IMG/VR virus record: IMGVR_UViG_3300042391_000882
Location: 1 to 35,143 of that record
Length of the DNA: 35,143 bases
Origin: a virus
Direction: 5' to 3' (one strand)
Part shown: positions 2,276-18,005 of the stretch, in pieces
Numbering within the stretch: position 1 is the stretch's first letter
Layout: each line of letters starts with the position of its first letter
Translations under genes and position numbers: made by a program
The notes under the pieces: generated by a model
The model's input: the letters and a program-made list of their open reading frames with translations, nothing else
Database searches by the model: none
Told to the model about the DNA's origin: nothing

Positions 2276-2841
2276 GCCTCCCCCCATCGTAATTGTAGAT
2301 TCTGCAAAGCAGCCACAAACTCCAACCCCTTGTCGCCAGCGTCAGGGTAAAGGGTCTGCTGGTCCTCGTGAGTGTATCGGTAGACCCGCGGCCTTAGCTG
2401 GTCGCTCATGGCGCTTTCCAGGCTCATGGTCACACTCACCTCGGTGCCGGTATCCTTCACGCTGTCGCTGTCCATCAGGCCCCGGAAAAGAGACACAGGG
2501 GCACCAATGACGTTCATGTCGCCATCAAAGACCAGCAGGCTCACCGTCGCCGTGCGGTTCTGATAATTCCCCAGCAAAATGCTGCTGAACACCTCCGAAG
2601 GAATCCCTGAAACCCTCACCGCAATGCCATTCTGTGCGCTGTCCACCGTCTCCGTGATGTCCTCGATCGATAGCAGATCACCCAGTCCGCTCCACTCATA
2701 CCCGTCAGCGTAGAGCGTCCCTATCCCAGACCAAATCCTGACCGCACCGCCGGGAAAATCAGCATAAACCAAGATGGCCGGACGCACCACATTCTCCGCC
2801 AGTGCGGCCTTCGTGTCAGCATTGATGGCGCGTTCACTCAT
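2272..2841 (-). CDS. Tail-tip hub protein (DUF2163-like N-terminus)
   Basis: A 189-residue beta-rich protein between the distal tail protein and the tip peptidase. The N-terminus (LVYADFPGGAVRIWSG, then a Tyr-Glu-Trp segment and a Ser-Ile-Glu-Asp turn) resembles the tail protein family that precedes NlpC/P60 and J-like genes in many siphoviruses and gene transfer agents. It overlaps both neighbours by 4 nt. Inferred to be part of the baseplate hub joining the tail tube to the tip; no enzymatic motif is seen. Confidence 0.6.
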   Translation of the reverse strand: MSERAINADTKAALAENVVRPAILVYADFPGGAVRIWSGIGTLYADGYEWSGLGDLLSIEDITETVDSAQNGIAVRVSGIPSEVFSSILLGNYQNRTATVSLLVFDGDMNVIGAPVSLFRGLMDSDSVKDTGTEVSVTMSLESAMSDQLRPRVYRYTHEDQQTLYPDAGDKGLEFVAALQNLQLRWGEA

Positions 2842-3440
2842 GGCAAGATCACCTCATCGGCAGAAAATTGAAACCCGGCCTGCATCCGGTTCCTGTCCCA
2901 GGTAAATTCAGGCACTGACCTAAGCCGGAAAACTCCCCGTGGTTGATACCAGACCACCGGCTGCGCGTCAGGCAATGCCCTGCAGTGCGGCCAGACAGAC
3001 AGTGTGGCGTTCCCGGCGGCGTCACTATAGCAGTCCTCCGTTGCCTGCCGGATGCGCCCGCCGATCTCCACCCGCTGCCCTACCGCCAGCACCAGCCGGT
3101 CAGGCGTCCAGTTCCGCGTCAGCACGCCAGTGCCGGCCACATGATCCCCTGCCAGCTCCGGCGTGCCCAGTTCCAGCTCCGTCGTCTCCAAAAAGGCCGA
3201 ATCCCGCACATAAAAAGACCCCTCGGCCCCATTGAGTTTAGCAAACCACCCCTGCCATTTCTGGCCATCCTCCACGCTCATTGGCGGCAGCTTCAGGATC
3301 ACACTCCAGCGCTGCCCCGGCCAGGCATACACCTGCTCTGTCAGCGTAAATGGCGACACGGACCGCGCCACGGCAGAATCCATCACCCATGAAACCTCGC
3401 GGGCACCAGGGCTGTCAGGCAGAGGGATTGGTGCTTCCAT
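2838..3440 (-). CDS. Distal tail-like protein
   Basis: A 200-residue protein placed after the tape measure and fibre genes and before the hub proteins, as expected for a distal tail (Dit-like) or minor tail protein. It is rich in beta-prone segments and aromatic residues, with a segment W-S-V-I-L-K-L-P-P near residue 46 and a C-terminal F-Q-F-S-A-D strand. The ATG overlaps the upstream TAA as TAATG, so translation is probably coupled to the fibre gene. The N-terminus mentions no signal peptide. Function rests mainly on position and length. Confidence 0.55.
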   Translation of the reverse strand: MEAPIPLPDSPGAREVSWVMDSAVARSVSPFTLTEQVYAWPGQRWSVILKLPPMSVEDGQKWQGWFAKLNGAEGSFYVRDSAFLETTELELGTPELAGDHVAGTGVLTRNWTPDRLVLAVGQRVEIGGRIRQATEDCYSDAAGNATLSVWPHCRALPDAQPVVWYQPRGVFRLRSVPEFTWDRNRMQAGFQFSADEVILP

Positions 3441-5125
3441 TATCCTAGTTTATAGTGGGATGTGAGGGAATCAAGCACCGCCTGCGCTGCCTCCACACTT
3501 AGTCCGGTTCGGAAGATTTGGCATCTGGCGATAGTGCAGGCCAGTCCCTTCGTGTAGCCACCGGATTCAGAGGCAAACCGGGCATATCCAGCCGTTGGCG
3601 TGGCCGGGGTGAAGCTCGTAGTCGTATTGCCGCCGGTCGCGCTAGTGGTCAGGACAAAAGCCCCCAAGCTCGCAGGCCGCACCACCGCCACAAAGGCCAC
3701 CGGAGCAGCGCTGTAGGAAGATGAAATCAGCAGCCCAGTTCCCGATCCGCCGCCAAATGCCTGCAATCGCATCCCGTCAGTGTCAGCCACCACTTGGATG
3801 CCCATGCTATTGGAGGCAAAAAGGATCTTCTGCCCCGTCGATGCCGTCGCACTGAATACCATTGCAATCGTCATCCCTTGGGCCACTACCGCCGCCCCCA
3901 TCGTCCAGTTATGCGAGTTGCTGGTGCCATTATAGGCCACCCCCACAAAACTGCTCCCGGCCAGCGCCGTAGTGGCAGGCGTCCCGGCTACAGTTGCCGC
4001 TGTGCTCCCATAGAGGTCAGTCCATGTGCTTGCCCCGCCTGGCCAGCCTGGGCTTTCAGAGGTAAAATCAATGGTTGGAATTGGTAGATTGGCCTTGTTG
4101 AACCGGCGCACATGAGTCGTCGTCCCGTCATTCACCAGGGTAAAGCGGTCGTATCCCTCGCCGTTATTCGGGTGCCATGACTTCTTGGCAAAGTCGCCCG
4201 TCCCTGCCGCATTCGTGATCTCGTAGGGCGGGAAGGTGAAGGCAGAGGTCCAGTTCACTACGTAGCCCTGCTTGATCTTCAGCATATGCGATACCCCCAC
4301 CGGGATGGCCGGAGCGCGAAAATCAATCTCCGTATTCGCCGCAGGCGTCACCACCGTCAGCGTCCCCTTTTGCCCATTGGCAGTGGTCTGGATCGTGTTG
4401 GAGTTCAGGCCCGTCTCCACATCAAAGGGATACCCCTGCTCGCCCGTGATCGTATGCGTCCCGCTATAGATTGGCGCGTAAATATTCTGCCTCACCGTCT
4501 TCTGTTCCGTCGTCGTAAACGACTGATCCACCGCCCGCACAAACCCGCCGCTGGAAGTCTCCCCAGCGTGCTCCACAAAGGCCTGAATGGCAGTGATATC
4601 GTCAGCCAGGCCACTGCTCGATCCCAGCGGGTCATAGAGCGCATCGGATTCCGCCTTGGTGTAGGCAGTCGGTGGCGATGGTGTCGGTGGCGTCCCGGTA
4701 GTCAGTCCCGCCAGCGTAGCGCTCTCCAGCGTCCCAGAGCAGAAGATCGACTCACCGCCCGCCGCCAGCGTCCCCACCACCTCCAGCGTCAGCATACCGG
4801 CAGGCAGGTCGCCTGTCGCCGCCGTCCCGTAGTTGATGCTCGCCAGTGCTCCATTCCCCTGCCGCCACTGCTGCGCCGTCAGGGATGCGGAAAGGCTTGC
4901 TGATACAATGATTGTCTCGGTCAGCAGGGTAGCCCCGTTTTTGAACCTCACCTTGATGTTCGTCAGGTCAGAGCGCAGCACCATCCGGCCATTGGCAAAA
5001 AGCCCCAGCTCCAGAATGATCGCCTCGCCCCGGTAAAAGAGCGGCTGGACTCCAGTCCGCAGGCATTTCAGCACCCCACCGGCTCGCGTCCGCTGCTCAC
5101 ATTCGATTCGTAGTTTTCTGGCCAT
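3440..5125 (-). CDS. Tail fibre / receptor-binding protein with lectin-like C-terminal domain
   Basis: A 561-residue protein between tape measure and distal tail genes. Residues 1-130 form a compact beta domain resembling baseplate upper-protein N-termini. A Thr/Pro-rich linker (about 145-155) leads into a short AESDALYDP segment often seen in fibres. The last ~200 residues are Gly/Ser/Thr-rich and resemble a LamG/concanavalin-like sandwich, the kind used for glycan binding and ending in a helix followed by HYKLG. Probably peripheral to the tail tip and involved in adsorption. It is separated from the tape measure by 21 nt. Receptor specificity cannot be deduced. Confidence 0.6.
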   Translation of the reverse strand: MARKLRIECEQRTRAGGVLKCLRTGVQPLFYRGEAIILELGLFANGRMVLRSDLTNIKVRFKNGATLLTETIIVSASLSASLTAQQWRQGNGALASINYGTAATGDLPAGMLTLEVVGTLAAGGESIFCSGTLESATLAGLTTGTPPTPSPPTAYTKAESDALYDPLGSSSGLADDITAIQAFVEHAGETSSGGFVRAVDQSFTTTEQKTVRQNIYAPIYSGTHTITGEQGYPFDVETGLNSNTIQTTANGQKGTLTVVTPAANTEIDFRAPAIPVGVSHMLKIKQGYVVNWTSAFTFPPYEITNAAGTGDFAKKSWHPNNGEGYDRFTLVNDGTTTHVRRFNKANLPIPTIDFTSESPGWPGGASTWTDLYGSTAATVAGTPATTALAGSSFVGVAYNGTSNSHNWTMGAAVVAQGMTIAMVFSATASTGQKILFASNSMGIQVVADTDGMRLQAFGGGSGTGLLISSSYSAAPVAFVAVVRPASLGAFVLTTSATGGNTTTSFTPATPTAGYARFASESGGYTKGLACTIARCQIFRTGLSVEAAQAVLDSLTSHYKLG

Positions 5126-5146
5126 ATTAGTTGATTGGTTTTTTGG

Positions 5147-7273
5147 TTAAGATTGCATCTGTTTCCGGTATCCCCCGCCCCGGCTCACCCCCTCGGCCAC
5201 TGCCGCCCTCGTCTGATCCATCATCTCGTCCATGCTGCCCGCCAGCTCTGCGCGGGTCACCCCATTTTGGAAGTTTTGGTTGATGATGATTGGAGCCGCC
5301 GCAGGCTCCTGGCTCCCCCCGCCACCGCCAGCAAACGCCTGCGCCCTGCCATTCGGGATGATCCTCCCCGCGCTGTCAGGCACAAACAATTCCGGCCCCC
5401 GTTCCCCCACCACCGAAACCTTGCCCATCGGAGGCCGGCCACCGTCAGCAAAGCCACCCCCAAAAAGCCCCTTCAGCACCCCTCCGACCCCAGACGCCCC
5501 TCCGATCAATCCTGTCAGCCCGCCAATGCTCCCGCCATTCCCGAAAAGGGATAGCTGGATAAATTGTTGGATCATCCGGCTGGCCCACTGGTTGACGATG
5601 TCAGAAATCTTCCCGGTCCCCGTCGCCCATGCGCTGACCATGTCCGTCACCACCGCACGGTTCATGGATTGGAATTGCTCCATGCTCCGGCGGTTAGCCT
5701 GATCCAGATCATCCAGATCATTCAGCTTCTCCCGGATCATCTTCAGTCGCCGTGCTTGGTCCTTCTTGTCAGCCGCGTCCATGATCTCACTCAGGTTGGC
5801 TTGCTTATTTGCCTGTATCTGCACTTCAGCCGCCGCCTCTGCCGCGATCACATCCCGCGTTTTTTCGTAGGAAGCTATGATCTGATCACCCGGCGAAAGC
5901 CCACCGTCAAATGGATCGCTCAAGGCCGCAGCAGAAGCCTTGGCGGCATCGGCGATCTCCTTGGCGGCAACATCCCCGGACTTCACCAGCGCGTCCTCGG
6001 TGGCCTGCTGGATGCCATCCAAATCGGCGACAGCTTGGTTGAAAAAGCTGCGGTCAATAAGCGCATTCTCTTGCTGGGCAGGCCCGATAAGTGAAGGGTC
6101 AGCAGGCGTCACCTCATCTCCAGGCAGGACTGCCAGCCCCGTGGTTATATCCCCATAGGGAGACGGGTTTACCTCCTGCGGCTCCTCCTTGATCCCAAAG
6201 GCTTTCTTGATGGTCTTCACTGGCTCTTGGAAGGCCGTGGCCGTGGTCTTCCCAAGCTCCGCAAAGGTCTGTTTCATCTCCTGCAGAGTCACCTTGATGT
6301 ATTCCCACATCACGTTGAACGACGCCTTCCCCTCCACCCAAATCGAGGCCAGCGCCGTCCCTGCCACATCGATCACCGCCTTCACGGCCTTGAATCCATT
6401 CAGCACCAAGTCCTTAAAAATAATGAATGGCTGCGCCCAGTCAGCGATTTTTGCGGCGAAGTTCACCGCCTCGTCCGTAAACTTCCTGATCATCGGCCCC
6501 ACCCCGCCAGACTTGACGATGAAATCAGTGATCCCCCGCCCCAGCATAATGATGGCCGGGGCAATCGTTATGCCAAGATGATTCCCCACCGCCTCCCATT
6601 CCTTGTTCAGCCGGTCCATCTCGTTGTTGGCCAGATTAGCCGTCTGCACTTGGATGTCAGTCAGCTTCGCCCCGATGCTCGTCAGGAATCTGTCAGTCTC
6701 TTGTATCCCGCCCTTGCCTTGGTTGATGACATTCATGATGTCGACCCCGCCCTTCCCGAAGATCGTCTTCGTCAGGTCGATCTTATCGCCAATGCTCTTC
6801 ATCTCCGACAGCTTCTGGCTGATCTCGCCAAACTGCCCCGGCGCATCCATCGCGCTGATCTTCTCAAAGTTTAGTCCAAGCCGCGTGATCGCCTCTTCGG
6901 CCTTTCCGTTGGCTATACTGGCCTGCATTTTGGCGATACTTGAGGCCATCGCCTCCTGGCTACTGCCCGCCACCTCCGCAGCATACCCCAGCGACTGAAA
7001 GGCACTGACTGCCACACCGGCCTTGCCTGCGATCTCATCCAAGGCATCGATCCTGCCCAGCCCCTCAAAGCCAAGACTCACCGCTTTTTTGATCCCCTCC
7101 ATTGCCGCGCCCAGGCCTGCAATTACACCCGCTCCGATCACCGTCCCCAGCGCCACCGCTCCAGCACTAACAGAGCCTTGCGCCCCCTTCATCCCACGAT
7201 TGATGTCAGACGACAGCTTGTCCGCCGTAGCACGGAGCGCGATGTTCAGGTCAGCAATGGAATCTTTAGCCAT
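5147..7273 (-). CDS. Tail tape measure protein
   Basis: The longest gene product here (708 residues), directly after the tail chaperone region. It is Ala-rich and largely helical, with hydrophobic stretches near the N-terminus (about residues 40-70) and around 230-300. Near residues 622-635 it has the VGERGPELFVP motif typical of lambda-like tape measure C-termini, followed by a Gly-rich stretch. By the usual rule of about 1.5 angstrom per residue the tail would be near 100 nm. The start follows an ATAACACT leader with no Shine-Dalgarno sequence. Confidence 0.93.
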   Translation of the reverse strand: MAKDSIADLNIALRATADKLSSDINRGMKGAQGSVSAGAVALGTVIGAGVIAGLGAAMEGIKKAVSLGFEGLGRIDALDEIAGKAGVAVSAFQSLGYAAEVAGSSQEAMASSIAKMQASIANGKAEEAITRLGLNFEKISAMDAPGQFGEISQKLSEMKSIGDKIDLTKTIFGKGGVDIMNVINQGKGGIQETDRFLTSIGAKLTDIQVQTANLANNEMDRLNKEWEAVGNHLGITIAPAIIMLGRGITDFIVKSGGVGPMIRKFTDEAVNFAAKIADWAQPFIIFKDLVLNGFKAVKAVIDVAGTALASIWVEGKASFNVMWEYIKVTLQEMKQTFAELGKTTATAFQEPVKTIKKAFGIKEEPQEVNPSPYGDITTGLAVLPGDEVTPADPSLIGPAQQENALIDRSFFNQAVADLDGIQQATEDALVKSGDVAAKEIADAAKASAAALSDPFDGGLSPGDQIIASYEKTRDVIAAEAAAEVQIQANKQANLSEIMDAADKKDQARRLKMIREKLNDLDDLDQANRRSMEQFQSMNRAVVTDMVSAWATGTGKISDIVNQWASRMIQQFIQLSLFGNGGSIGGLTGLIGGASGVGGVLKGLFGGGFADGGRPPMGKVSVVGERGPELFVPDSAGRIIPNGRAQAFAGGGGGSQEPAAAPIIINQNFQNGVTRAELAGSMDEMMDQTRAAVAEGVSRGGGYRKQMQS

Positions 7274-7277
7274 AGTG

Positions 7278-7796
7278 TTATCGTCGTTTTGCTTTTAGGC
7301 GGGCCTGCTTTGCGGCTGATTTGTCGATCGCCTCACCCAGTAGTTTCGCGTAGGCTTGATGGGTGGCGACCTTGGTTTGTGCGTAGCCAGGGCGGAGAAA
7401 TGGACGCGGGGGATTGCCCCCCTGTGACTTCTCGCCCTTCCTGCCGTAGCTCCCGCGTGAGGTAGTTCCGAACTCCACCAGGTGAGCGTAGTTCGCCGGC
7501 CTGACAGGAGTGATGTTCCCGTTACCAAAGCGGTCGATCCACATCTCAGTCCTGCGGGATGAGCCAATGTAGACCGTAACCATCTTCTTCCGCTTACTGG
7601 TGTGAATCTTCTGCTTGATGCTCTTCTTCAGCATTCCCGTCGTTCCCACCGGGGTCAGGCTCTTCACCCGCGCCGTCATGGGTCGAGCCGCCTTCGTCAG
7701 TGATTCACGCATCCCGCCGCGCTCAATCTTATCCGCCAGCTCCTGCATGGATTTGATCGCTGCCGTAAAGCCTGAGATTTGAGCGGTTACTTTCAT
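7278..7796 (-). CDS. HK97 gp10-like head-tail/tail completion protein
   Basis: A 172-residue basic protein with the pattern of the HK97 gp10 family: an N-terminal helix (IKSMQELADKI), a long helix ending in ARPMTARVKSLTPVGTTG, then strands and the conserved VEFGT motif near residue 112, followed by PRPFLRPG. The family usually sits between head closure and tail terminator genes; here it lies between the tail chaperone and the tape measure, which is unusual. Its ATG overlaps the upstream TGA by 4 nt. Predicted to take part in neck or tail completion. Confidence 0.85.
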   Translation of the reverse strand: MKVTAQISGFTAAIKSMQELADKIERGGMRESLTKAARPMTARVKSLTPVGTTGMLKKSIKQKIHTSKRKKMVTVYIGSSRRTEMWIDRFGNGNITPVRPANYAHLVEFGTTSRGSYGRKGEKSQGGNPPRPFLRPGYAQTKVATHQAYAKLLGEAIDKSAAKQARLKAKRR

Positions 7797-8104
7797 GCGT
7801 TTAGTTTGGACAGCACCCCCATCGCCATCGTCACCTTCTGCGCCACCACCTCTGGCGGCACTTCTGGTTTAGGGGTTTGGATTCTTGGTAGGAAATCGTC
7901 TGGGGTGAATGGGTCTGGGTGAGACTTGGGGTCTCGGTGGCAGTTGTAGAGGCTCGCGCAGATCATCGCCGCATTGTAGGCAGCGGACCTGTCTCTGGCC
8001 CGCCATTCATCCAGCGCTTCGCACATGATACCGTCAACCTCCGCCGGCGTAAGCCCCCAAAAGAGATCGCCAGAGAGGGACGCGACCCGGTGAGCACGGG
8101 CCAC
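7793..8104 (-). CDS. Tail assembly chaperone, downstream (T-like) part; probably made by frameshift
   Basis: An open frame of 103 codons counted from a GTG at 8104, but the frame stays open upstream into the end of the preceding gene. It has the hallmarks of the second tail-chaperone ORF: FWGLTPAEVDGI, then a helix containing AAYNAAMICASLYN, and PFTPDDFLPR. In lambda and most long-tailed phages this part is made only as a fusion with the first ORF through programmed frameshifting. Here the shift would be +1 (or -2) near 8154-8168. Independent initiation at GTG is possible but less likely. It overlaps the gp10-like gene by 4 nt. Confidence 0.7.
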   Translation of the reverse strand: MARAHRVASLSGDLFWGLTPAEVDGIMCEALDEWRARDRSAAYNAAMICASLYNCHRDPKSHPDPFTPDDFLPRIQTPKPEVPPEVVAQKVTMAMGVLSKLNA

Positions 8105-8153
8105 ACTCCCGGCCCAGTAGGCCGCAGACTGTCCCTCTCTGGCAGATTGGTTA

Positions 8154-8168
8154 TCATTCGCTTTTGCC
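8154..8168 (-). promoter_or_regulatory. Candidate programmed frameshift site (+1 or -2)
   Basis: On the minus strand the first chaperone gene ends with codons GGC AAA AGC GAA TGA. The second chaperone frame is one base ahead and has no stop from here to its GTG at 8104. A +1 slip at AAA-A or at the UGA stop, or a -2 slip on the A run, would give a continuous fusion. Location and order match known tail chaperone frameshifts; which slip is used is inference. Confidence 0.5.
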
Positions 8169-8444
8169 CGTGTCAGCGGCCTTCGCGGTCGCCTCCCGGA
8201 TAGAGGCTGGCACCAGATCGCGGCGGATTGCCTCCGTCAGCAGCTCGATGTGTTCACCGGGCGTCAGGTCATCGCACGCCTCCGCCACCTTCGCAGCGTC
8301 AGCATCCGGCATCCCGCCGATCGTGATCTTCTTCCGGCTCTCAGAGTCCGTGATGGCATCGCCTGACAGTTTCATCAAATCAATGCCGTGGCATTCAAAG
8401 AGCTGCCGGACAGCGCGGGTCGTGAATCGTGGTTTTAGGTCCAT
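8154..8444 (-). CDS. Tail assembly chaperone, upstream (G-like) part
   Basis: A 96-residue acidic, helical protein immediately after the tail tube gene and before the T-like frame, the standard position of the first tail-chaperone ORF. The N-terminus (LKPRFTTRAVRQLFECHGIDL) is like that of small phage proteins of this class, and the C-terminal tail (ATAKAADTGK) is low complexity, as common just before a frameshift site. It would bind the tape measure protein and nucleate tube assembly without being part of the virion. Confidence 0.65.
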   Translation of the reverse strand: MDLKPRFTTRAVRQLFECHGIDLMKLSGDAITDSESRKKITIGGMPDADAAKVAEACDDLTPGEHIELLTEAIRRDLVPASIREATAKAADTGKSE

Positions 8445-8481
8445 GTGTGGTGGATGGTGTGTGGGTTTAGTGAATCAGGGA

Positions 8482-8919
8482 TCAGACAAACTTGGTGTAA
8501 ACGGGCTTCCCGCTCACCTTGATCGTCACCGGGGCCATGATCCCGGATTTGACCGGGAAGGTCAGGCCGATCTTCGTAAAGATACCAGCAAAGGCGATGT
8601 ATCCACCAGCCGCGGTGCTGACCCAGCCGGGCATCTTGAGGTAAAAGTTATGCTTCTGACGCCCGACCACATCGTTATAGATGGTCTCGTGCGCCGCCAG
8701 ATTCGGGTCAAAGACCAGATCGAACGAGACATCGCCACTGTCGGCGATTCCTGCGAGGAACTCCGTAAAGAAGTCCGCGCTGTCATGGGTGGTGACATCG
8801 ATCGTTTCCACCGAAACCTCCGGGCCGGAGATGTCGCCCACATTGGCCACATCCGTGTAGCTCCCGGTTTGGAGTCGCTGAATCGCCAGTTTAGTGCCGT
8901 ATGCTGCTTTTTTAGCCAT
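8482..8919 (-). CDS. Major tail tube protein, short paralog
   Basis: A 145-residue tail tube protein. The core shows VGDISGPEVSVETIDVTTHDS near residues 27-47 and ends with a beta strand pattern IKVSGKPVYT, typical of lambda V / HK97-type tube subunits. It is a clear paralog of the adjacent 273-residue protein: both begin MAKKAAY, share GDISGPEVSV and AGIA-sx-GDV, and end GxPVYT. It has no extra domain. The start follows a TATAACACT leader. It probably forms the bulk of the tube, or mixes with the longer paralog. Confidence 0.85.
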   Translation of the reverse strand: MAKKAAYGTKLAIQRLQTGSYTDVANVGDISGPEVSVETIDVTTHDSADFFTEFLAGIADSGDVSFDLVFDPNLAAHETIYNDVVGRQKHNFYLKMPGWVSTAAGGYIAFAGIFTKIGLTFPVKSGIMAPVTIKVSGKPVYTKFV

Positions 8920-8960
8920 AGTGTTATATTAGTTTTTTGGTTGGAGAATCGGAAAGAAGA

Positions 8961-9782
8961 TCAGACGCGGGTGTAGACGGGTGCCCCGCTGATTTTGACG
9001 CTCACCGGAGCCTTCAGGGCATCACCCACCGGGGCCAGAATCCCCACCTTGGTGACGAGGCCCGTGAAGTTGAACCGGGTGGCCGTGTTGCTGGTGATGC
9101 CCATCATTGAGACGCCAGCGATTGAAAAAGTCTGCAGCGTGCTAATGCTGGAAGGAACCTCAATCCTCAAAAGCAGGCTCGTCGATACCGCATCCCATCG
9201 CACGTATTGCGTGCCGCCTTCAGATGGGTTCACCGTCCCGACAACAGCCCCGCCATGCAGCACGTTGACGCTGGCCGTGCCTTGGGTGGTCCCGGTGAAT
9301 GTAATGGCCACCACGTAGCTCTCAGCGATCAGCGGGGCCACCGTCAGCGTAGCCTCGATGTAATCACCCGCCGCAGGATCGGCTGCCGTGTAGTATGCCA
9401 CCCCACCCCCTATCGTAAAGTTGCCATTCCGCACCCACCCCACCACCGACCCTGCAAAGCTCGTGGTCGGGATTAATTGCGTCGAGTCAGCCGGGAGCCG
9501 GATCACAAACGCCGCCGGCCTCCGCTCATCCACCATCGCCAGCAGCCGGGAGTGCCCGTTATCGTTGGGATCGAAGAACAGCTCAAAGGTCACATCCCCA
9601 GCCTCGGCGATCCCTGCCAGCGACTCAGAAAACCCATCCGGGCTATCATGCGCCGTCACATCCACCACCGCCACGGAAACCTCCGGCCCGGAAATATCCC
9701 CCAGATGCTTCACCCGGATCACGGATGAGTCTGCAGGGTCAGTGATTTGGATGCGGGTATTGTATGCTGCTTTTTTGGCCAT
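8961..9782 (-). CDS. Major tail tube protein, long paralog with inserted beta-sandwich domain
   Basis: A 273-residue tail tube protein. Residues 1-105 and 231-273 match the short paralog downstream (GDISGPEVSV, AGIAEAGDVTF, ISGAPVYT). Between them, about residues 106-230, is an insertion with alternating strands and Gly/Ser/Thr turns (GWVRNGNF, ATLTVAPL, SYVVAITFTG, TASVNVLHGG) that looks like a carbohydrate-binding jelly roll of the kind displayed on phage virions. The insertion would sit on the outside of the tube. Why two tube genes are kept side by side is unknown; the long one could be a minor decorating subunit. Confidence 0.82.
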   Translation of the reverse strand: MAKKAAYNTRIQITDPADSSVIRVKHLGDISGPEVSVAVVDVTAHDSPDGFSESLAGIAEAGDVTFELFFDPNDNGHSRLLAMVDERRPAAFVIRLPADSTQLIPTTSFAGSVVGWVRNGNFTIGGGVAYYTAADPAAGDYIEATLTVAPLIAESYVVAITFTGTTQGTASVNVLHGGAVVGTVNPSEGGTQYVRWDAVSTSLLLRIEVPSSISTLQTFSIAGVSMMGITSNTATRFNFTGLVTKVGILAPVGDALKAPVSVKISGAPVYTRV

Positions 9783-9801
9783 GGTTTGAAAGTGTTAAAG
9801 G

Positions 9802-10260
9802 TCAGGCATCACGCCAGATGATCCGGTAATCGACTGACAGCCGGTGGGCTTCTGTGATGCCGTCGCCGGTTTGGTAGTCCAGAGGTTGAGCAAACCCGCC
9901 GGACTCCCGAAAGGCAGCTTGCAGGTCGGCAGCGGCCCCTCCGGGCTTGGCTCCGTTGAGCGCTTCGCTGATCGCATCGGCCACAGCGCGGCACCCGGAC
10001 AGATGCCGCGCCTCGATGTCAAACTGCACGATGGTATCCTCCATGCCGGGGTCGGCGGTCGTCGCGCTATCATGGGTATGTTCCGGGGTGCTGGTGATCT
10101 CATGCCAGATCACCCTTGGTAGGGCACTCCCTTGGGCCGCCCTGCCACTATACAGTCGGCAGGCTGTCCCTGCCCCGATCAATGCCGTCAGAGCGCCATG
10201 GGCCTTCATCGCCACCATCAGTGACGTTGCCATCTTTGCGCTGTGATTGACGGCTGGCAT
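9802..10260 (-). CDS. Tail terminator (DUF3168-like)
   Basis: A 152-residue protein upstream of the tail tube genes, the conserved position of the tail terminator/completion protein (lambda U-like, DUF3168). It has the expected features: LTALIG near the N-terminus, RVIWHEITSTPEH, a VQFDIEARHLSG strand-helix, and a C-terminal RLSVDYRIIW strand. The start at 10260 (MPAVNHSAK) was chosen over an upstream ATG that would overlap the preceding gene by 47 nt. Acts at the tail-head end to stop tube growth. Confidence 0.8.
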   Translation of the reverse strand: MPAVNHSAKMATSLMVAMKAHGALTALIGAGTACRLYSGRAAQGSALPRVIWHEITSTPEHTHDSATTADPGMEDTIVQFDIEARHLSGCRAVADAISEALNGAKPGGAAADLQAAFRESGGFAQPLDYQTGDGITEAHRLSVDYRIIWRDA

Positions 10261-10264
10261 GATG

Positions 10265-10591
10265 TTATTCAGTAGGCTCGACCGGCTTCTGCTTCTCGGC
10301 CTGATAAGCAATCAAATCAGGCAAGCAAACCGCAACCGCCCCAAAAGCAGCCGCAGCGGACGGAATAGACTGCACCGCCTCCCAAAAAGGAAGCCGAACT
10401 TCCCGTCGATCTGACAAAAGCCGGTCGCCGGTCGCCTGATCGTAGGGGACATACTCAACGTAAATCGAGTCTTGCTCGCCCATGGACCGGGAGCTAATCG
10501 CCAAGTCCATGATGTAGATTTCGTTGTAAGTCTTCGACGGAACCTCAGGACGTTCTGCCGGAGTATCAAGTGGGATGGTAATTGTGGCCAT
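10265..10591 (-). CDS. Hypothetical protein in the neck/fibre region
   Basis: A 108-residue protein with no family I recognise. It is mixed alpha/beta, with an acidic central region (SIYVEYVPYD) and an Ala-rich helix near the C-terminus. It lies between the fibre/coiled-coil genes and the tail terminator, with an AATAACAC leader before ATG. Because the adjoining 62- and 477-residue products are fibre-related, it could be part of the same inserted adsorption module, but nothing in the sequence proves this. Confidence 0.6.
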   Translation of the reverse strand: MATITIPLDTPAERPEVPSKTYNEIYIMDLAISSRSMGEQDSIYVEYVPYDQATGDRLLSDRREVRLPFWEAVQSIPSAAAAFGAVAVCLPDLIAYQAEKQKPVEPTE

Positions 10592-10597
10592 GTGTTA

Positions 10598-10786
10598 TTA
10601 GGTGGTGGGTTGTTCAGCCTTGGCCTTCTCGGCTTCGGCTTGATCGATTTGAGTCAGGACGGCGATGGCCCCTTTGAGTTGGGTCTCTTCGCTTTCGAGT
10701 TGTTTGAGCCGCTCCCGCAGATCGTGCTGTTCTGCGAGGTTGGCGTTGCGGGAGGTGATGAGGTTGGTTTTGTAGGTTGGGTTCAT
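10598..10786 (-). CDS. Small coiled-coil protein
   Basis: A 62-residue protein dominated by one charged helix (about residues 10-55, with heptad-like Leu/Ala spacing around LRERLKQLESEETQLKGAI). This suggests a coiled coil, possibly trimeric as in fibre necks or chaperones. It lies directly after the 477-residue fibre gene, where small fibre chaperones or attachment proteins are often found. Function is inferred from context only. Confidence 0.55.
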   Translation of the reverse strand: MNPTYKTNLITSRNANLAEQHDLRERLKQLESEETQLKGAIAVLTQIDQAEAEKAKAEQPTT

Positions 10787-10799
10787 GTGTGGGAATTAA

Positions 10800-12233
10800 T
10801 TAAACAACGCAAGGCACCCGGTATGCAGTCCCGGTCGAATCGTAGAGCGTCAGGAATCCGGTTGGGACGACTACAGTGGCAGTGTATGCGGTGTCTGTGG
10901 TCAGCTTTCCTTGGATGTTGGTAAACGCACTGTCATCAGCAAGGCGGGCTTGCAGGCTTGTGGTGCTCCGCTTGATCGCGGGGAATGCGGAGGTGGTGCC
11001 GCCTAGTTGCAGCCGGTCAAAGTTATTAAGAGCTGAATTATACAACCCAATAATGCCATCAACAGTGCCATAGACGTGACTGGTGGCATTTAACTGGAAT
11101 GCATTGGCTCGGACAGTTTGAGCGACGAAAATATTCCTCGGACAATTTACCCCGCCAGCAGCGCCGATGTCGTAGGCATTGTGTGTGGCGGCGATGAAGT
11201 GACCAGTCGAAGAAATATTCCAACGCTCAACCCCACTGGAATACATTCGGATTGGTGAGCTTGTCCCAGAACCAAAAAACAAAGTTGCACCCGCTGAAAT
11301 ATCAATTGATCTTGCGCCGCCTGTCCCGGCATGATTGGTAAAGAGCCGCACGGTGTTTGCTCCCGTCTTCCAATCAATCTCAAACCATTCATTTGCGGTC
11401 GTTCCGGGAAAAGTATTATAAACCCGAAACGCCTGCGCTGCTGTCCCGTTCCGCTGGGCTAGGATTCCGGCGGCGTCTCGGAAAAGAGCGACGTCTGGCA
11501 CGTTGGAAAGGGCGTGGGAGCTTGTCCAACCAAGAGGAATGTGACTAGCCAATCTCATCCCGATTGTAGCGCCGTTATCAACGCCCCAAATGGCAGTCCC
11601 TCCCCCGTAAGCAGCAACGCCGCTTGAGGAAAGAATCTGAAAACCGGCGGCTACTCCAATGCTGGAGTCGTAAAATTGAGGTTGGGCGTAGGTGTATCCG
11701 AAGCCAGAAGCGATTTGTCCACCCTTCGTAATGCTGGCTTTGCTCACCAAGCCCACCTGTAAATCCAGCAGCAGGGCCGCAGCGTTGCTGTTGGTGTTGG
11801 TGACTTGGAGCTTAATGGCAGTCGGCGTCCCTGTCGTGTTCCAAGTCGCAGCCAGATCAACCAGACTAGTCGCCTGCGTCCCGGTCAGGCTTTGGCCGGT
11901 CAGGGTTTGGGCCAAAAACGTCGGCGCGTCCGTTTGGCCTAGGCCGATGGCGGTACGGAGCGTTGGCGCGTCAGTAGTCGATAGCAGCGCCCGCCCATAG
12001 GCCGTAGTCGTCAGCGCAGCGATCGCCGTCAGGTCAGAGTCCAGTGGTTGATACCCCGCCGCCACTGCTGCCGTCGTCGCATAGGCCGCCAGGTTTTGGT
12101 CCCCGGTATTCACCCCGGTATTAGCCGTGTAAATCTCCGTGAAGTTATCATTCACCTTCCCGAATGCCGTGCGGATAGGATCGCCCGTGCCGTCGTTGGC
12201 AGCAGCGCCGATGTTGATGGTTTGCTTTGCCAT
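10800..12233 (-). CDS. Fibre protein with tail-fibre N-terminal motif
   Basis: A 477-residue protein. Its N-terminus INIGAAANDGTGDPIRTA followed by VNDNFTEIY is a motif shared by many phage tail fibre and baseplate adhesin N-termini. Residues ~40-130 carry short Ala/Thr/Leu-rich repeats (TAIAALTTTAYGRALL, then LGQTDAPTF, LTGQSLTGT) typical of trimeric fibres. The remainder is Gly/Ser/Thr/Asn-rich with many short strands and ends VPCVV. It lies between head closure and tail terminator, an unusual place for a fibre gene. It may be a head or neck whisker or a side fibre. Confidence 0.7.
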   Translation of the reverse strand: MAKQTINIGAAANDGTGDPIRTAFGKVNDNFTEIYTANTGVNTGDQNLAAYATTAAVAAGYQPLDSDLTAIAALTTTAYGRALLSTTDAPTLRTAIGLGQTDAPTFLAQTLTGQSLTGTQATSLVDLAATWNTTGTPTAIKLQVTNTNSNAAALLLDLQVGLVSKASITKGGQIASGFGYTYAQPQFYDSSIGVAAGFQILSSSGVAAYGGGTAIWGVDNGATIGMRLASHIPLGWTSSHALSNVPDVALFRDAAGILAQRNGTAAQAFRVYNTFPGTTANEWFEIDWKTGANTVRLFTNHAGTGGARSIDISAGATLFFGSGTSSPIRMYSSGVERWNISSTGHFIAATHNAYDIGAAGGVNCPRNIFVAQTVRANAFQLNATSHVYGTVDGIIGLYNSALNNFDRLQLGGTTSAFPAIKRSTTSLQARLADDSAFTNIQGKLTTDTAYTATVVVPTGFLTLYDSTGTAYRVPCVV

Positions 12234-12237
12234 AGGT

Positions 12238-12657
12238 TTAGGTGTGGTCAGCGGTCTGCAGCGTCATGTCGGCGGTAAAGTCAGTGGTATCAGAAGTGAA
12301 GCTGTAGCCAGTCGCGTTGATGGCGTTATTCGTGAAGACCGCCGAAATGATCACCTCAGCCGGCCGGGATGGTGGCAGTGGCAGAGCGCTGGTGATGTCG
12401 TAAATAAAACCACCCCAGCTGATCCGGTCCCGTGGATTCAGGTCATCCAGCGCTGATTGATAGCGCACAGAGAAAACCCGCTCTGCACTGGCATCCCTTG
12501 CCGACCCATTCGTCGTCTCCTTGCCACTCATCGTTTGCGCGTGCGCCCACAGCGTCGCCAGTGTGGCCCATGTCTGGGTCACAGAGCCTTGAGCATCCAC
12601 CGACTCCGTGGCCCGCTGGATTGTTATTCTGGCATCTCTACTTCCGATCGGTGTCAT
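12238..12657 (-). CDS. Head closure / head-tail joining protein
   Basis: A 139-residue beta-barrel-like protein with features of the SPP1 gp16 / HK97 head-tail joining family: RDARITIQRATE near the N-terminus, then VTQTWATLATLWAHAQTMSGKE and a central strand with RVFSVRYQS. Immediately downstream of the adaptor gene, which it overlaps by 4 nt. Expected to close the portal channel after packaging and to dock the tail. The C-terminal ~25 residues (Thr/Asp-rich) are longer than in most relatives. Confidence 0.8.
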   Translation of the reverse strand: MTPIGSRDARITIQRATESVDAQGSVTQTWATLATLWAHAQTMSGKETTNGSARDASAERVFSVRYQSALDDLNPRDRISWGGFIYDITSALPLPPSRPAEVIISAVFTNNAINATGYSFTSDTTDFTADMTLQTADHT

Positions 12658-13268
12658 TTAACCGCCCCCTCCCAAGGCACCCGGAAAGAGTCGATCAGCC
12701 AATCGAGGGATTTCGGAATCTCCGTAATGGTCGCCCCAGAAATCACCATCTCCCGCCGCTCAAAAAGATGGGCAGTCAGCAGCAGAATAGCGTGCCTCAG
12801 CGGCCCCGGAACGTCAGTAGCCAGTGAACCATACCCGGCCCAGTAACTCGCCCGCCAGACCGCATCCTGTGGGCTGCGCGGGGTATCGATGTTGCTCGGG
12901 TAGGAGGTCAGCCAGAGCAGCGCCGGTTCTCTGGCAGGCTGCTGGGCAGTGTTTGCCCATGCCGTCCAAGTGCCAGCGTCGTTCCGGTATTCCAACAAAA
13001 AGGTCTCCGCTGCCATCAGTCTGGCGCGGGGCAGTTCCACCACCACCCCCTCGGCGAAATCGCCCGTGATATAGGCAATCCACTTCTGCCGGACAAAAGC
13101 CCTCCGGCATTCATTTTCGATCCGATCCCGTGCCGCCGTAATGCAAAGCGCAATCAGCGAATCCTCATCGCTACCATCCACCCGTAGATGCTCCTTCGCT
13201 TGAGCCAGGGTAATCGGCTCAATCGCAGGTGCAGTCACCAGCTGGGAGATGGCAGCAGAAGGAATCAT
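12654..13268 (-). CDS. Head-tail connector (gp6/gp15-like adaptor)
   Basis: A 204-residue protein with the typical start of the phage connector family: PITLAQAKEHLRVDGSDEDSLI then LCITAARDRIENECRRAFV, a four-helix pattern that packs on the portal ring. The C-terminal half contains the WASYW...GYGSLATDVPGPLRHAILLL element seen in such adaptors. It overlaps the flanking genes by 4 nt on both sides. Predicted to form a ring below the portal. Confidence 0.85.
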   Translation of the reverse strand: MIPSAAISQLVTAPAIEPITLAQAKEHLRVDGSDEDSLIALCITAARDRIENECRRAFVRQKWIAYITGDFAEGVVVELPRARLMAAETFLLEYRNDAGTWTAWANTAQQPAREPALLWLTSYPSNIDTPRSPQDAVWRASYWAGYGSLATDVPGPLRHAILLLTAHLFERREMVISGATITEIPKSLDWLIDSFRVPWEGAVK

Positions 13269-13450
13269 TTTTTCGTAGGCTTGGCTGCTTTGGCAGGCTC
13301 TTCAGTTGGCGCAGCGTAATCCTCTGGGACTACCCGACCGCGGTTTGCCAACATCAGCTCCACGGCCACATCATCAGTCACGGTCACCACAGTGCCCTCG
13401 GCGATATGCTGGCCAGCGATCAGGCAGTCGGAGTTGATCAGGAATTTCAT
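13265..13450 (-). CDS. Small capsid-operon protein
   Basis: A 61-residue protein between major capsid and adaptor genes. It begins with a short beta motif (KFLINSDCLIAGQHIAEGT then VVTVTDDVAVELMLANRGRV) seen in small proteins at this position in HK97-like phages, and ends in a Lys/Ala/Pro-rich tail. It may be a head or adaptor accessory, but no function is established. It overlaps the adaptor start by ATGA. Confidence 0.6.
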   Translation of the reverse strand: MKFLINSDCLIAGQHIAEGTVVTVTDDVAVELMLANRGRVVPEDYAAPTEEPAKAAKPTKK

Positions 13451-13520
13451 AACAAAAAAGAATGATTGCCGGGGCGGCGACGTATCCCCGCCCCGGCTTT
13501 ATCATATGGCACCAACAAAA

Positions 13521-16982: not shown

Positions 16983-17263
16983 TGATTCAGTTTCTGGTCT
17001 ATCCGGTCTAGGATTTTCAGGATGTTAGCCAGCTTCTCATTGTTGGCGCTTTCCTTCAGCTCCAGCTCGCGGATGCGCGGCTGCACTGCGGCAGTCGTGT
17101 GAGTGTTTTCGTTGACGGCGATCTGGATCGTGGCCACCCACACCCCCATCGCAAAGGCTCCTGCCAAAAGCGCCCAGCCAAGCTTGACCACAATATCAAG
17201 GGTCTTGAGTCGACTGGAAAAGCCCTCTGTCTGTTCTTCACTCATGGTCAGGATTTGGCTCAT
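16979..17263 (-). CDS. Single-span membrane protein with coiled coil (i-spanin-like)
   Basis: A 94-residue protein between endolysin and portal. A cytoplasmic-looking N-terminus (about 25 residues) precedes one transmembrane segment (KLGWALLAGAFAMGVWVATI, about 28-47), followed by a charged helix with heptad spacing (RELELKESANNEKLANILKILDRIDQ). This topology matches inner-membrane spanins and XhlA-like lysis accessories. Start at 17263 overlaps the endolysin TGA by 4 nt; a second ATG six codons later is possible. The partner may be one of the two lipoproteins upstream. Confidence 0.6.
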   Translation of the reverse strand: MSQILTMSEEQTEGFSSRLKTLDIVVKLGWALLAGAFAMGVWVATIQIAVNENTHTTAAVQPRIRELELKESANNEKLANILKILDRIDQKLNQ

Positions 17264-17781
17264 GGCGGCAAAAGGCGGATGAATTTCCGGGACTCCTTGA
17301 AGTTACGGGACTTATCCCACACCCCGTCCCCCTCACGGCCACCACTGGCCCCGGTGTTCCCTTCGATGGTTTTGATAACCCCTCTGGCATCATCAGCCAC
17401 CAAGCCCGTATGGCTCATGTCAAAAGTCACGATGTCTCCCGTCCGTAGTGATGGAATGTCGTCAGCGAACATCACCTGCAGGCCGCGTTTCTTGGCCCAG
17501 TCTTCCAGTCCAAAGGCGGCGGCAGTCTTCGGCCTCCATTTTTCAAATCCGGCCGGCGTCAGCTTCAGTGCTGCCAACACCTCCTTATCCTGCCCCCATT
17601 GCTGAATGCACCAGCATACAAACGCCGCACACCATGGCCAGCCAGTCGGCTGCTCCTTCGCCAGATCACAGGCCGCCTGATATTCACGCACCCTCTTCCC
17701 ACTATTCCGCCCCACTTCACGCACCCCCACCTCGCGGCGGGCGATCTCGATCAGCTTCTGGCGGACGGGGAGAGTGCTCAT
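17260..17781 (-). CDS. CHAP-domain endolysin
   Basis: A 173-residue peptidoglycan hydrolase. It starts IEIARREVGVREVGRNSG, then WPWCAAFVCWCIQQWG with the catalytic Cys within WCAAF, the CHAP pattern. A GDIVTFDMSHTGLVADDARG segment supplies the probable catalytic His, followed by IEGNTGASGG. No signal peptide, so release needs the holin. The start at 17781 (MSTLPVRQ) was chosen because it overlaps the upstream TGA in an ATGA junction. It would cleave peptide or amide bonds in host murein at lysis. Confidence 0.88.
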   Translation of the reverse strand: MSTLPVRQKLIEIARREVGVREVGRNSGKRVREYQAACDLAKEQPTGWPWCAAFVCWCIQQWGQDKEVLAALKLTPAGFEKWRPKTAAAFGLEDWAKKRGLQVMFADDIPSLRTGDIVTFDMSHTGLVADDARGVIKTIEGNTGASGGREGDGVWDKSRNFKESRKFIRLLPP

Positions 17782-18005
17782 GATTTGCGAACCCAAGCCA
17801 GCAAAAGGTGGATGATGGTGTCGATGATCCAGCCAGCCTGCCCTTGCAGATAGGAAACCGCCTTTGTCCTCACGAACTCCAGCTTCTCCGACCCCTTCCC
17901 GAACCGGGCATCAGCAACACTGATCGCCTCAACAATCGCCGCGATTGCCAGCTTGTTGTTGTCAGCCAACCAGGTGGCGATGTATTTCAGGAGGAAAACT
18001 TTCAT
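17778..18005 (-). CDS. Holin-like protein (LL-H type pattern)
   Basis: A 75-residue protein directly before the endolysin, overlapping both neighbours by 4 nt. It lacks a long classical N-terminal membrane span but has amphipathic hydrophobic segments: KLAIAAIVEAISVADAR and a C-terminal WIIDTIIHLLLAWVRKS. The arrangement (A-aVEA...G...K...V...IDTII) resembles the C-terminal half of LL-H family holins. Position next to endolysin supports a lysis role; exact family needs confirmation. Confidence 0.55.
   Translation of the reverse strand: MKVFLLKYIATWLADNNKLAIAAIVEAISVADARFGKGSEKLEFVRTKAVSYLQGQAGWIIDTIIHLLLAWVRKS

Follow-up and report, generated by a model that had tools for sequence, protein, structure and literature searches.

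Tandem tail tube protein genes in a virus record from IMG/VR, one with an inserted domain of predicted carbohydrate-binding type

The paired tail tube protein (TTP) genes analyzed here point to a virus whose non-contractile tail tube would be built from two paralogous lambda-type subunits encoded in tandem. The window, by which we mean the whole stretch of DNA under study, corresponds to a single IMG/VR virus record (35,143 bp). Its plain TTP of 145 aa is the probable bulk subunit, and its 273-aa TTP is predicted to combine the same ring-forming core with a jelly roll like those of carbohydrate-binding modules (CBMs), carried on the outside of the tube. We consider it fairly probable that both proteins co-assemble into a mostly plain tube that carries a fast-changing module for binding the host surface. 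A fraction of the subunits would then show the jelly-roll domain along the shaft, where the domains most likely make weak, multivalent contacts with host surface glycans and so aid adsorption. The ratio of plain to decorated subunits would be set by separate translation of the two genes, with no frameshift.

Both ORFs lie on the minus strand exactly where the original prediction had put two tail tube paralogs (8482-9782). The decorated copy (8961-9782) is upstream in transcription, and 41 nt separate it from the plain copy (8482-8919). The N-terminal core of the decorated protein, residues 1-97, is encoded at 9492-9782 and its C-terminal core, residues 237-273, at 8964-9074. Likeness to the plain protein is well beyond chance in BLASTP, with 49 of 97 residues identical over residues 1-97 (51%; E 3e-30) and 17 of 34 in the C-terminal parts (50%; E 4e-10), and the adjacency of these homologous ORFs bears out the proposed tandem duplication. 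The decorated TTP passes the gathering cut-off of the lambda-like TTP family PF16460 in Pfam (40.9 bits against 28.4), the plain TTP passes those of PF16460 (34.8 against 28.4) and PF16461 (33.9 against 26.1), and both match PHROG 158, "major tail protein." Where the plain protein has a linker of about 10 residues, the decorated protein has an insert at residues 98-236 (9075-9491, minus strand), a net gain of 128 aa. The insert of about 125 residues that had been proposed at 106-230 is real, with slightly wider boundaries. A frameshift origin of the two forms was ruled out by the two complete ORFs with separate starts.

The surroundings of the pair are those of lambda-like TTPs, between a tail terminator and the G/T chaperones and tape measure. 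Transcription on the minus strand runs from the head genes through a fibre-like gene, the tail terminator, the 273-aa TTP, the 145-aa TTP, and a chaperone in the G position to the T chaperone, an HK97-gp10-like protein, the tape measure, a 561-aa protein, the distal tail protein (Dit), and a J-like protein. The tail terminator or completion gene just upstream of the pair (9802-10260, with the ATG at 10260 inferred from sequence) matches PF11367 at 40.3 bits (cut-off, 24.5) in a search that used 9802-10245. The gpG-like chaperone position (8154-8444), between TTP and T, has no family match and is 97 to 99% identical in close relatives. The gpT-like extension frame (7793-8236) matches PF06223, Phage_tail_T, at 30.0 bits (cut-off, 25.9). 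It shares 83 nt with the end of G and lies in the +1 (equivalently -2) frame, unlike the -1 frame of lambda G/GT, and no classical slippery heptamer was seen by eye across the two genes (7793-8444). The tape measure protein has 708 aa (5147-7273; PHROGs 2276 and 9483).

Several other minus-strand genes deserve mention in their own right. The HK97-gp10/Neck1-like protein (7278-7796; PF04883) is encoded at a distance from the neck genes, with T on one side and the tape measure on the other, and a CHAP-domain protein near the portal gene (17260-17796; PF05257, 29.7 bits) is likely a cell-wall hydrolase. For the 561-aa protein between the tape measure and Dit (3440-5125), Pfam and PHROG gave no match, but the related loci L001 and L013-L016 have it at the same place (about 43 to 56% identity). 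The fibre-like gene encodes a 477-aa protein (10800-12233) with a T4 gp9/10-like N-terminus (PF07880, 30.7 bits); its gene stands between those for head closure and the tail terminator, which is unusual for a fibre, and homologs of the protein vary strongly, with about 50% identity in L012 where neighbours have 88 to 97%. This protein could be a neck or collar fibre.

Megablast of positions 7000-13500 against isolate phages gave no match, the terminase and major capsid protein (MCP) matches listed for isolates stay under 40% identity, and a scan of bacterial genomes found distant actinobacterial TTPs only.

An AlphaFold2 (AF2) monomer model of the decorated TTP, made from 14 aligned sequences, reached a mean pLDDT of 66, a moderate confidence, with core strands mostly at 75 to 90 and low values at the start of the insert (99-133) and in the beta2-beta3 loop, the latter being usual for monomers. 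Strands beta1 (10-14) and beta2 (26-31), the loop, beta3 (62-70), a helix (76-86), and beta4 (90-95) precede the insert, and beta5 (236-246) and beta6 (255-271) follow it. The model thus has the canonical TTP strand order, with a beta-sandwich, one helix, and a long flexible beta2-beta3 loop, and a second beta-sandwich between beta4 and beta5. In comparisons with VIA, the core is closest to the solved TTPs of phage YDC107 (9mfe; Z 9.5) and lambda (8iyk; Z 9.0), at about 26% identity. Both of these are single TTPs with a C-terminal Ig domain, unlike the pair in the window.

Residues 99-230 of the same model align to CBM36, CBM6, and CBM35 domains in VIA. Modelled alone, the insert folds with 11 strands at pLDDT 77 and pTM 0.76, standing between two intact core strands and not as part of the tube, in line with the carbohydrate-binding type of beta-sandwich that the original prediction had described. 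Its top VIA match is BiXyn10A CBM1 (4mgs; Z 12.3, rmsd 2.5, 123 aligned), followed by CBM36, CBM4, and CBM35, with many CBM families at Z 11 to 12; Foldseek returned CBM29, CBM22, and CBM35, and also phage CenC-like carbohydrate-binding and tail proteins. The best Pfam CBM family, CBM60, stayed below its cut-off (13.6 bits against 28.2), and when four inserts were scanned against Pfam and PHROG, all matches were sub-threshold. A profile of the insert found it in IMG/VR only in the same TTPs, and none of the other ORFs of the window and loci match it. The insert is accordingly predicted, from its modelled fold, to be an autonomous galactose-binding-like jelly roll of CBM type. Such a fold is no proof of sugar binding, because Eph ligand-binding domains, which bind proteins, score nearly as high as CBMs in VIA, and a glycan is best called a putative ligand.

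In SPP1 and 80alpha, loop beta4-beta5.1 protrudes outward without subunit contacts (PMC8718954), so by analogy the insert is predicted to decorate the tube exterior. The idea that it forms part of the tube wall is unsupported: the insert folds alone, and one relative, L015, has both TTP genes and no insert, an empty site which indicates that the TTP core is complete without it. A brace on the outside is another matter. The insert might lie against the outer face of its neighbour subunits, stabilizing the tube with no host ligand, much as domain 2 of the YSD1 tube protein, also an inserted beta-sandwich, embraces the neighbouring subunit (PMC8718954), and many decoration domains have no proven ligand. 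Yet the YSD1 domain is inserted between alpha1 and beta4 rather than in beta4-beta5.1, the presence of the insert in one of two copies and its lack in L015 mark it as dispensable for tube formation, and the plain core, which it would have to grip, diverges far more slowly. We regard a purely structural brace as quite unlikely.

In core trees (FastTree and a reduced IQ-TREE set), upstream copies of the window's type form one clade (SH-aLRT/UFBoot, 90.7/97) and downstream copies another (95.1/95), which implies that the duplication is older than these genomes and would place it before the divergence of genome types in the window's lineage. The plain upstream copy of L015 groups beside the upstream copy of the window (82.3/94), suggesting that the insert was lost in L015 or gained more than once. 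Comparison of the window with L005 gives 37 synonymous against 3 nonsynonymous changes in the insert, where dN/dS is 0.022; the ratio is 0.03 in the decorated core and 0.046 in the plain TTP. With dN/dS of 0.02 to 0.05, strong purifying selection acts on the insert as on both cores, and all are therefore real coding sequence. Phage genomes are mosaic and duplicates can be transient, so one TTP gene could in principle be an expendable or recently acquired spare with no distinct role; against the intact, constrained state of both genes (0.03 to 0.05, insert 0.02) and the apparent age of the pair, we think this very improbable.

In close relatives the two genes part ways. Against L012 and L013, flanking proteins are 83 to 98% identical (head-tail adaptor, 97; head closure, 88; G, 97) and the plain TTP 75 to 77%, but the decorated TTP is only 38 to 39% identical (core, 48 to 51%; insert, 29 to 31%), and the DNA sequences stop aligning at about residue 75 to 87 of the decorated gene, a loss that extends as far as the plain gene's leader. 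L001 shows the opposite mosaic, with a TTP pair 99 to 100% identical and a tape measure at 48%. Conserved flanks and plain TTP beside a divergent partner suggest that the decorated TTP behaves as a host-facing, exchangeable part. Over longer distances, dN of its core is about three times that of the plain one (0.58 versus 0.18, window versus L011), a rate that is also compatible with a protein that has dropped out of the bulk tube.

That last possibility is the main rival to a mixed tube. The decorated TTP might occupy only one or a few rings at a tail end (by the terminator or Dit) as a dedicated collar or adaptor, leaving a purely plain shaft; the original prediction had named a special ring as its own alternative. 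Besides the faster core, the decorated gene adjoins the tail terminator gene, and the decorated protein may be made in smaller amounts. Structural gene leaders in the window are mostly A-rich and poor in Shine-Dalgarno (SD) sequence, as in AAAAAACTAATATAACACTATG, a hint that the host may start translation independently of SD sites. By A content of the 25-nt leaders, the plain TTP, MCP, tape measure, and 561-aa genes are the richest (13 to 14 of 25), and the decorated TTP has 7 of 25. Within the window's lineage, the plain copy has the leader richer in A in all six decorated pairs examined (in L005 by one base only). An A-richer leader weakly suggests that the plain TTP is the main subunit.

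The surface by which rings stack speaks for the mixed tube. Loop beta2-beta3 is the main ring-to-ring contact in most tail systems (PMC8718954), and in the window this loop (residues 32-61 of each protein; 9600-9689 in the decorated gene and 8737-8826 in the plain gene, both minus strand) is 67% identical between the copies. With the two-sided stacking loop and the inner-sheet strands kept alike, both TTPs could enter the same tube. Across 20 pairs in four lineages, the likeness of upstream to downstream copies in the ring loop is 0.83 within a genome and 0.77 across genomes, and that in the rest 0.53 and 0.49; none of 20,000 permutations was as high, a p-value that is optimistic, as related genomes were treated as exchangeable. 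Cores matched within the genome are what would be expected if both TTPs are built into one tube, and less so of a special ring. The terminator ring has its own gene, and the Dit gene (2838-3440, minus strand; PHROG 1302, E 2.7e-25) means that the tip ring too is separately encoded. The decorated copy comes first or second depending on the lineage, and L015 has two plain copies. A special ring is on this evidence unlikely, less so than the other rivals, and we prefer the co-assembled, partly decorated tube, which makes the main reading of the original prediction plausible. Counted against the mixed tube are the moderate confidence of the monomer model, the protein-binding jelly rolls, and the lack of a CBM family above cut-off.

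Matching within genomes points to concerted evolution or to co-evolution of tube surfaces. Several cores of lineages U and D cluster with the partner from their own genome (L098, 96.9/99; L136, 97.8/96; L083, 97/89), even though the decorations of these lineages show homology across genomes (E 1e-9 to 1e-31). Recent gene conversion as the source of this matching was rejected for the window's lineage and lineage S, where same-codon use at shared residues is hardly higher within a genome than across genomes (0.52/0.45 and 0.53/0.55). In lineages U and D there is some excess of same-codon use within genomes, and older gene conversion is possible there. The core trees suggest several independent duplications, whereas the homologous decorations across genomes suggest fewer, together with concerted evolution.

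The pair is not peculiar to the window. After removal of duplicate loci, scans of IMG/VR together with an iterative HMM search yielded 29 other contigs with tandem TTP pairs, a set drawn by similarity to these TTPs and not a census. Tandem duplication with domain gain had been thought rarely described; among the viral contigs sampled, tandem pairs are common, but we did not find the exact combination described in the open-licence papers searched. At least 11 other contigs have a pair of the window's type. The decorated copy is upstream in the window's lineage (L001-L005, L011-L014, L016), with homologous inserts (23 to 98% identity) at the same site, for example in L011-L014 and L016. Outside the window's lineage, the decorated TTP has an unrelated insert, in most cases on a different outer loop. 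In three other lineages, decorations of 74 to 110 aa from other sequence families stand in loop beta1-beta2, and gene order differs among lineages, with the decorated copy first or second. L079 and L130 have two plain copies. In L113 (3962-4636), the second TTP copy has an extra 87 aa within the ring-stacking loop beta2-beta3 itself, so placed that they might be expected to interfere with stacking.

In the isolate-phage collection, no record has two places for this TTP. Searches with tblastn for both TTPs gave single-copy matches only (Streptomyces, Thermobifida, and others), and the plain TTP matched 22 records at one place each. The Microbacterium phage DizzyRudy (L151) has three annotated major tail protein genes at 2783-6803 (17, 19, and 20), of which gene 19 encodes about 586 aa. 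Other actinophages with two major tail protein genes have been reported (PMC11080557). Like the window, their genomes have two homologous major tail protein genes, but those genes are separated by another gene and the extra 51 aa are at the C-terminus, whereas here the genes are adjacent and the insert is internal. The actinophages of that report are absent from the matches of the window's TTP family in the phage collection.

Partly decorated tubes have precedents. In the Bacillus phage SPP1, a +1 frameshift yields plain gp17.1 and FN3-bearing gp17.1* at about 3:1, and the extra domain is on the exterior and thought to aid adhesion (PMC6316719, PMC8718954). The window resembles SPP1 in encoding a plain and a domain-bearing TTP, with the mixed tube as a proposal. 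Unlike the single frameshifted SPP1 gene with identical cores and a C-terminal FN3/Ig domain, it has two complete ORFs, cores 51% identical, and an internal CBM-like jelly roll in loop beta4-beta5.1. In 936-group lactococcal phages, MTP-TpeX puts a CBM on a fraction of tail tube proteins, and purified TpeX binds host cells specifically (PMC6669499). There too one TTP form has a CBM-type domain, CBM-like by predicted fold in our case, but TpeX is a C-terminal frameshift extension with a BppA-type CBM rather than an internal insert in a separate gene. In JBD30 gp44 and YSD1_22, too, the tube protein is interrupted by a beta-sandwich that lies on the outside. Theirs (Ig-like in JBD30) is encoded by a single gene that decorates every subunit, instead of one of two genes, and lies between alpha1 and beta4, one strand earlier than the insert in the window, which follows beta4 and precedes beta5.

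Our search of open-licence papers found no descriptions of tandem or paralogous tail tube genes and did not find the combination of two genes with an internal CBM-like domain in one. That combination is what is new here; two-gene tail proteins in actinophages and decorated tubes in other phages were already known. A wider reading is possible and we advance it tentatively: two-gene composite tubes may be widespread and recurrent, each with a bare-core copy and a paralog that bears exchangeable surface domains in one of several loops, the cores being matched within a genome by co-evolution or gene conversion while the domain changes as fast as a receptor-binding protein.

The role of siphophage tail shaft domains has been openly described as unresolved (PMC8718954), and domain removal gives different answers in lambda and SPP1. 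With plain and decorated subunits split into two genes, the role of the domain could be tested cleanly, tube assembly being left to the other gene. If the mixed tube is confirmed, the tail shaft would be a surface of host contact that evolves fast, and a plain TTP gene paired with a decorated one would serve as its annotation signature. If the wider, composite-tube reading is true, the shaft as well as the tip would serve host binding as a modular surface, with gene expression setting its dose.
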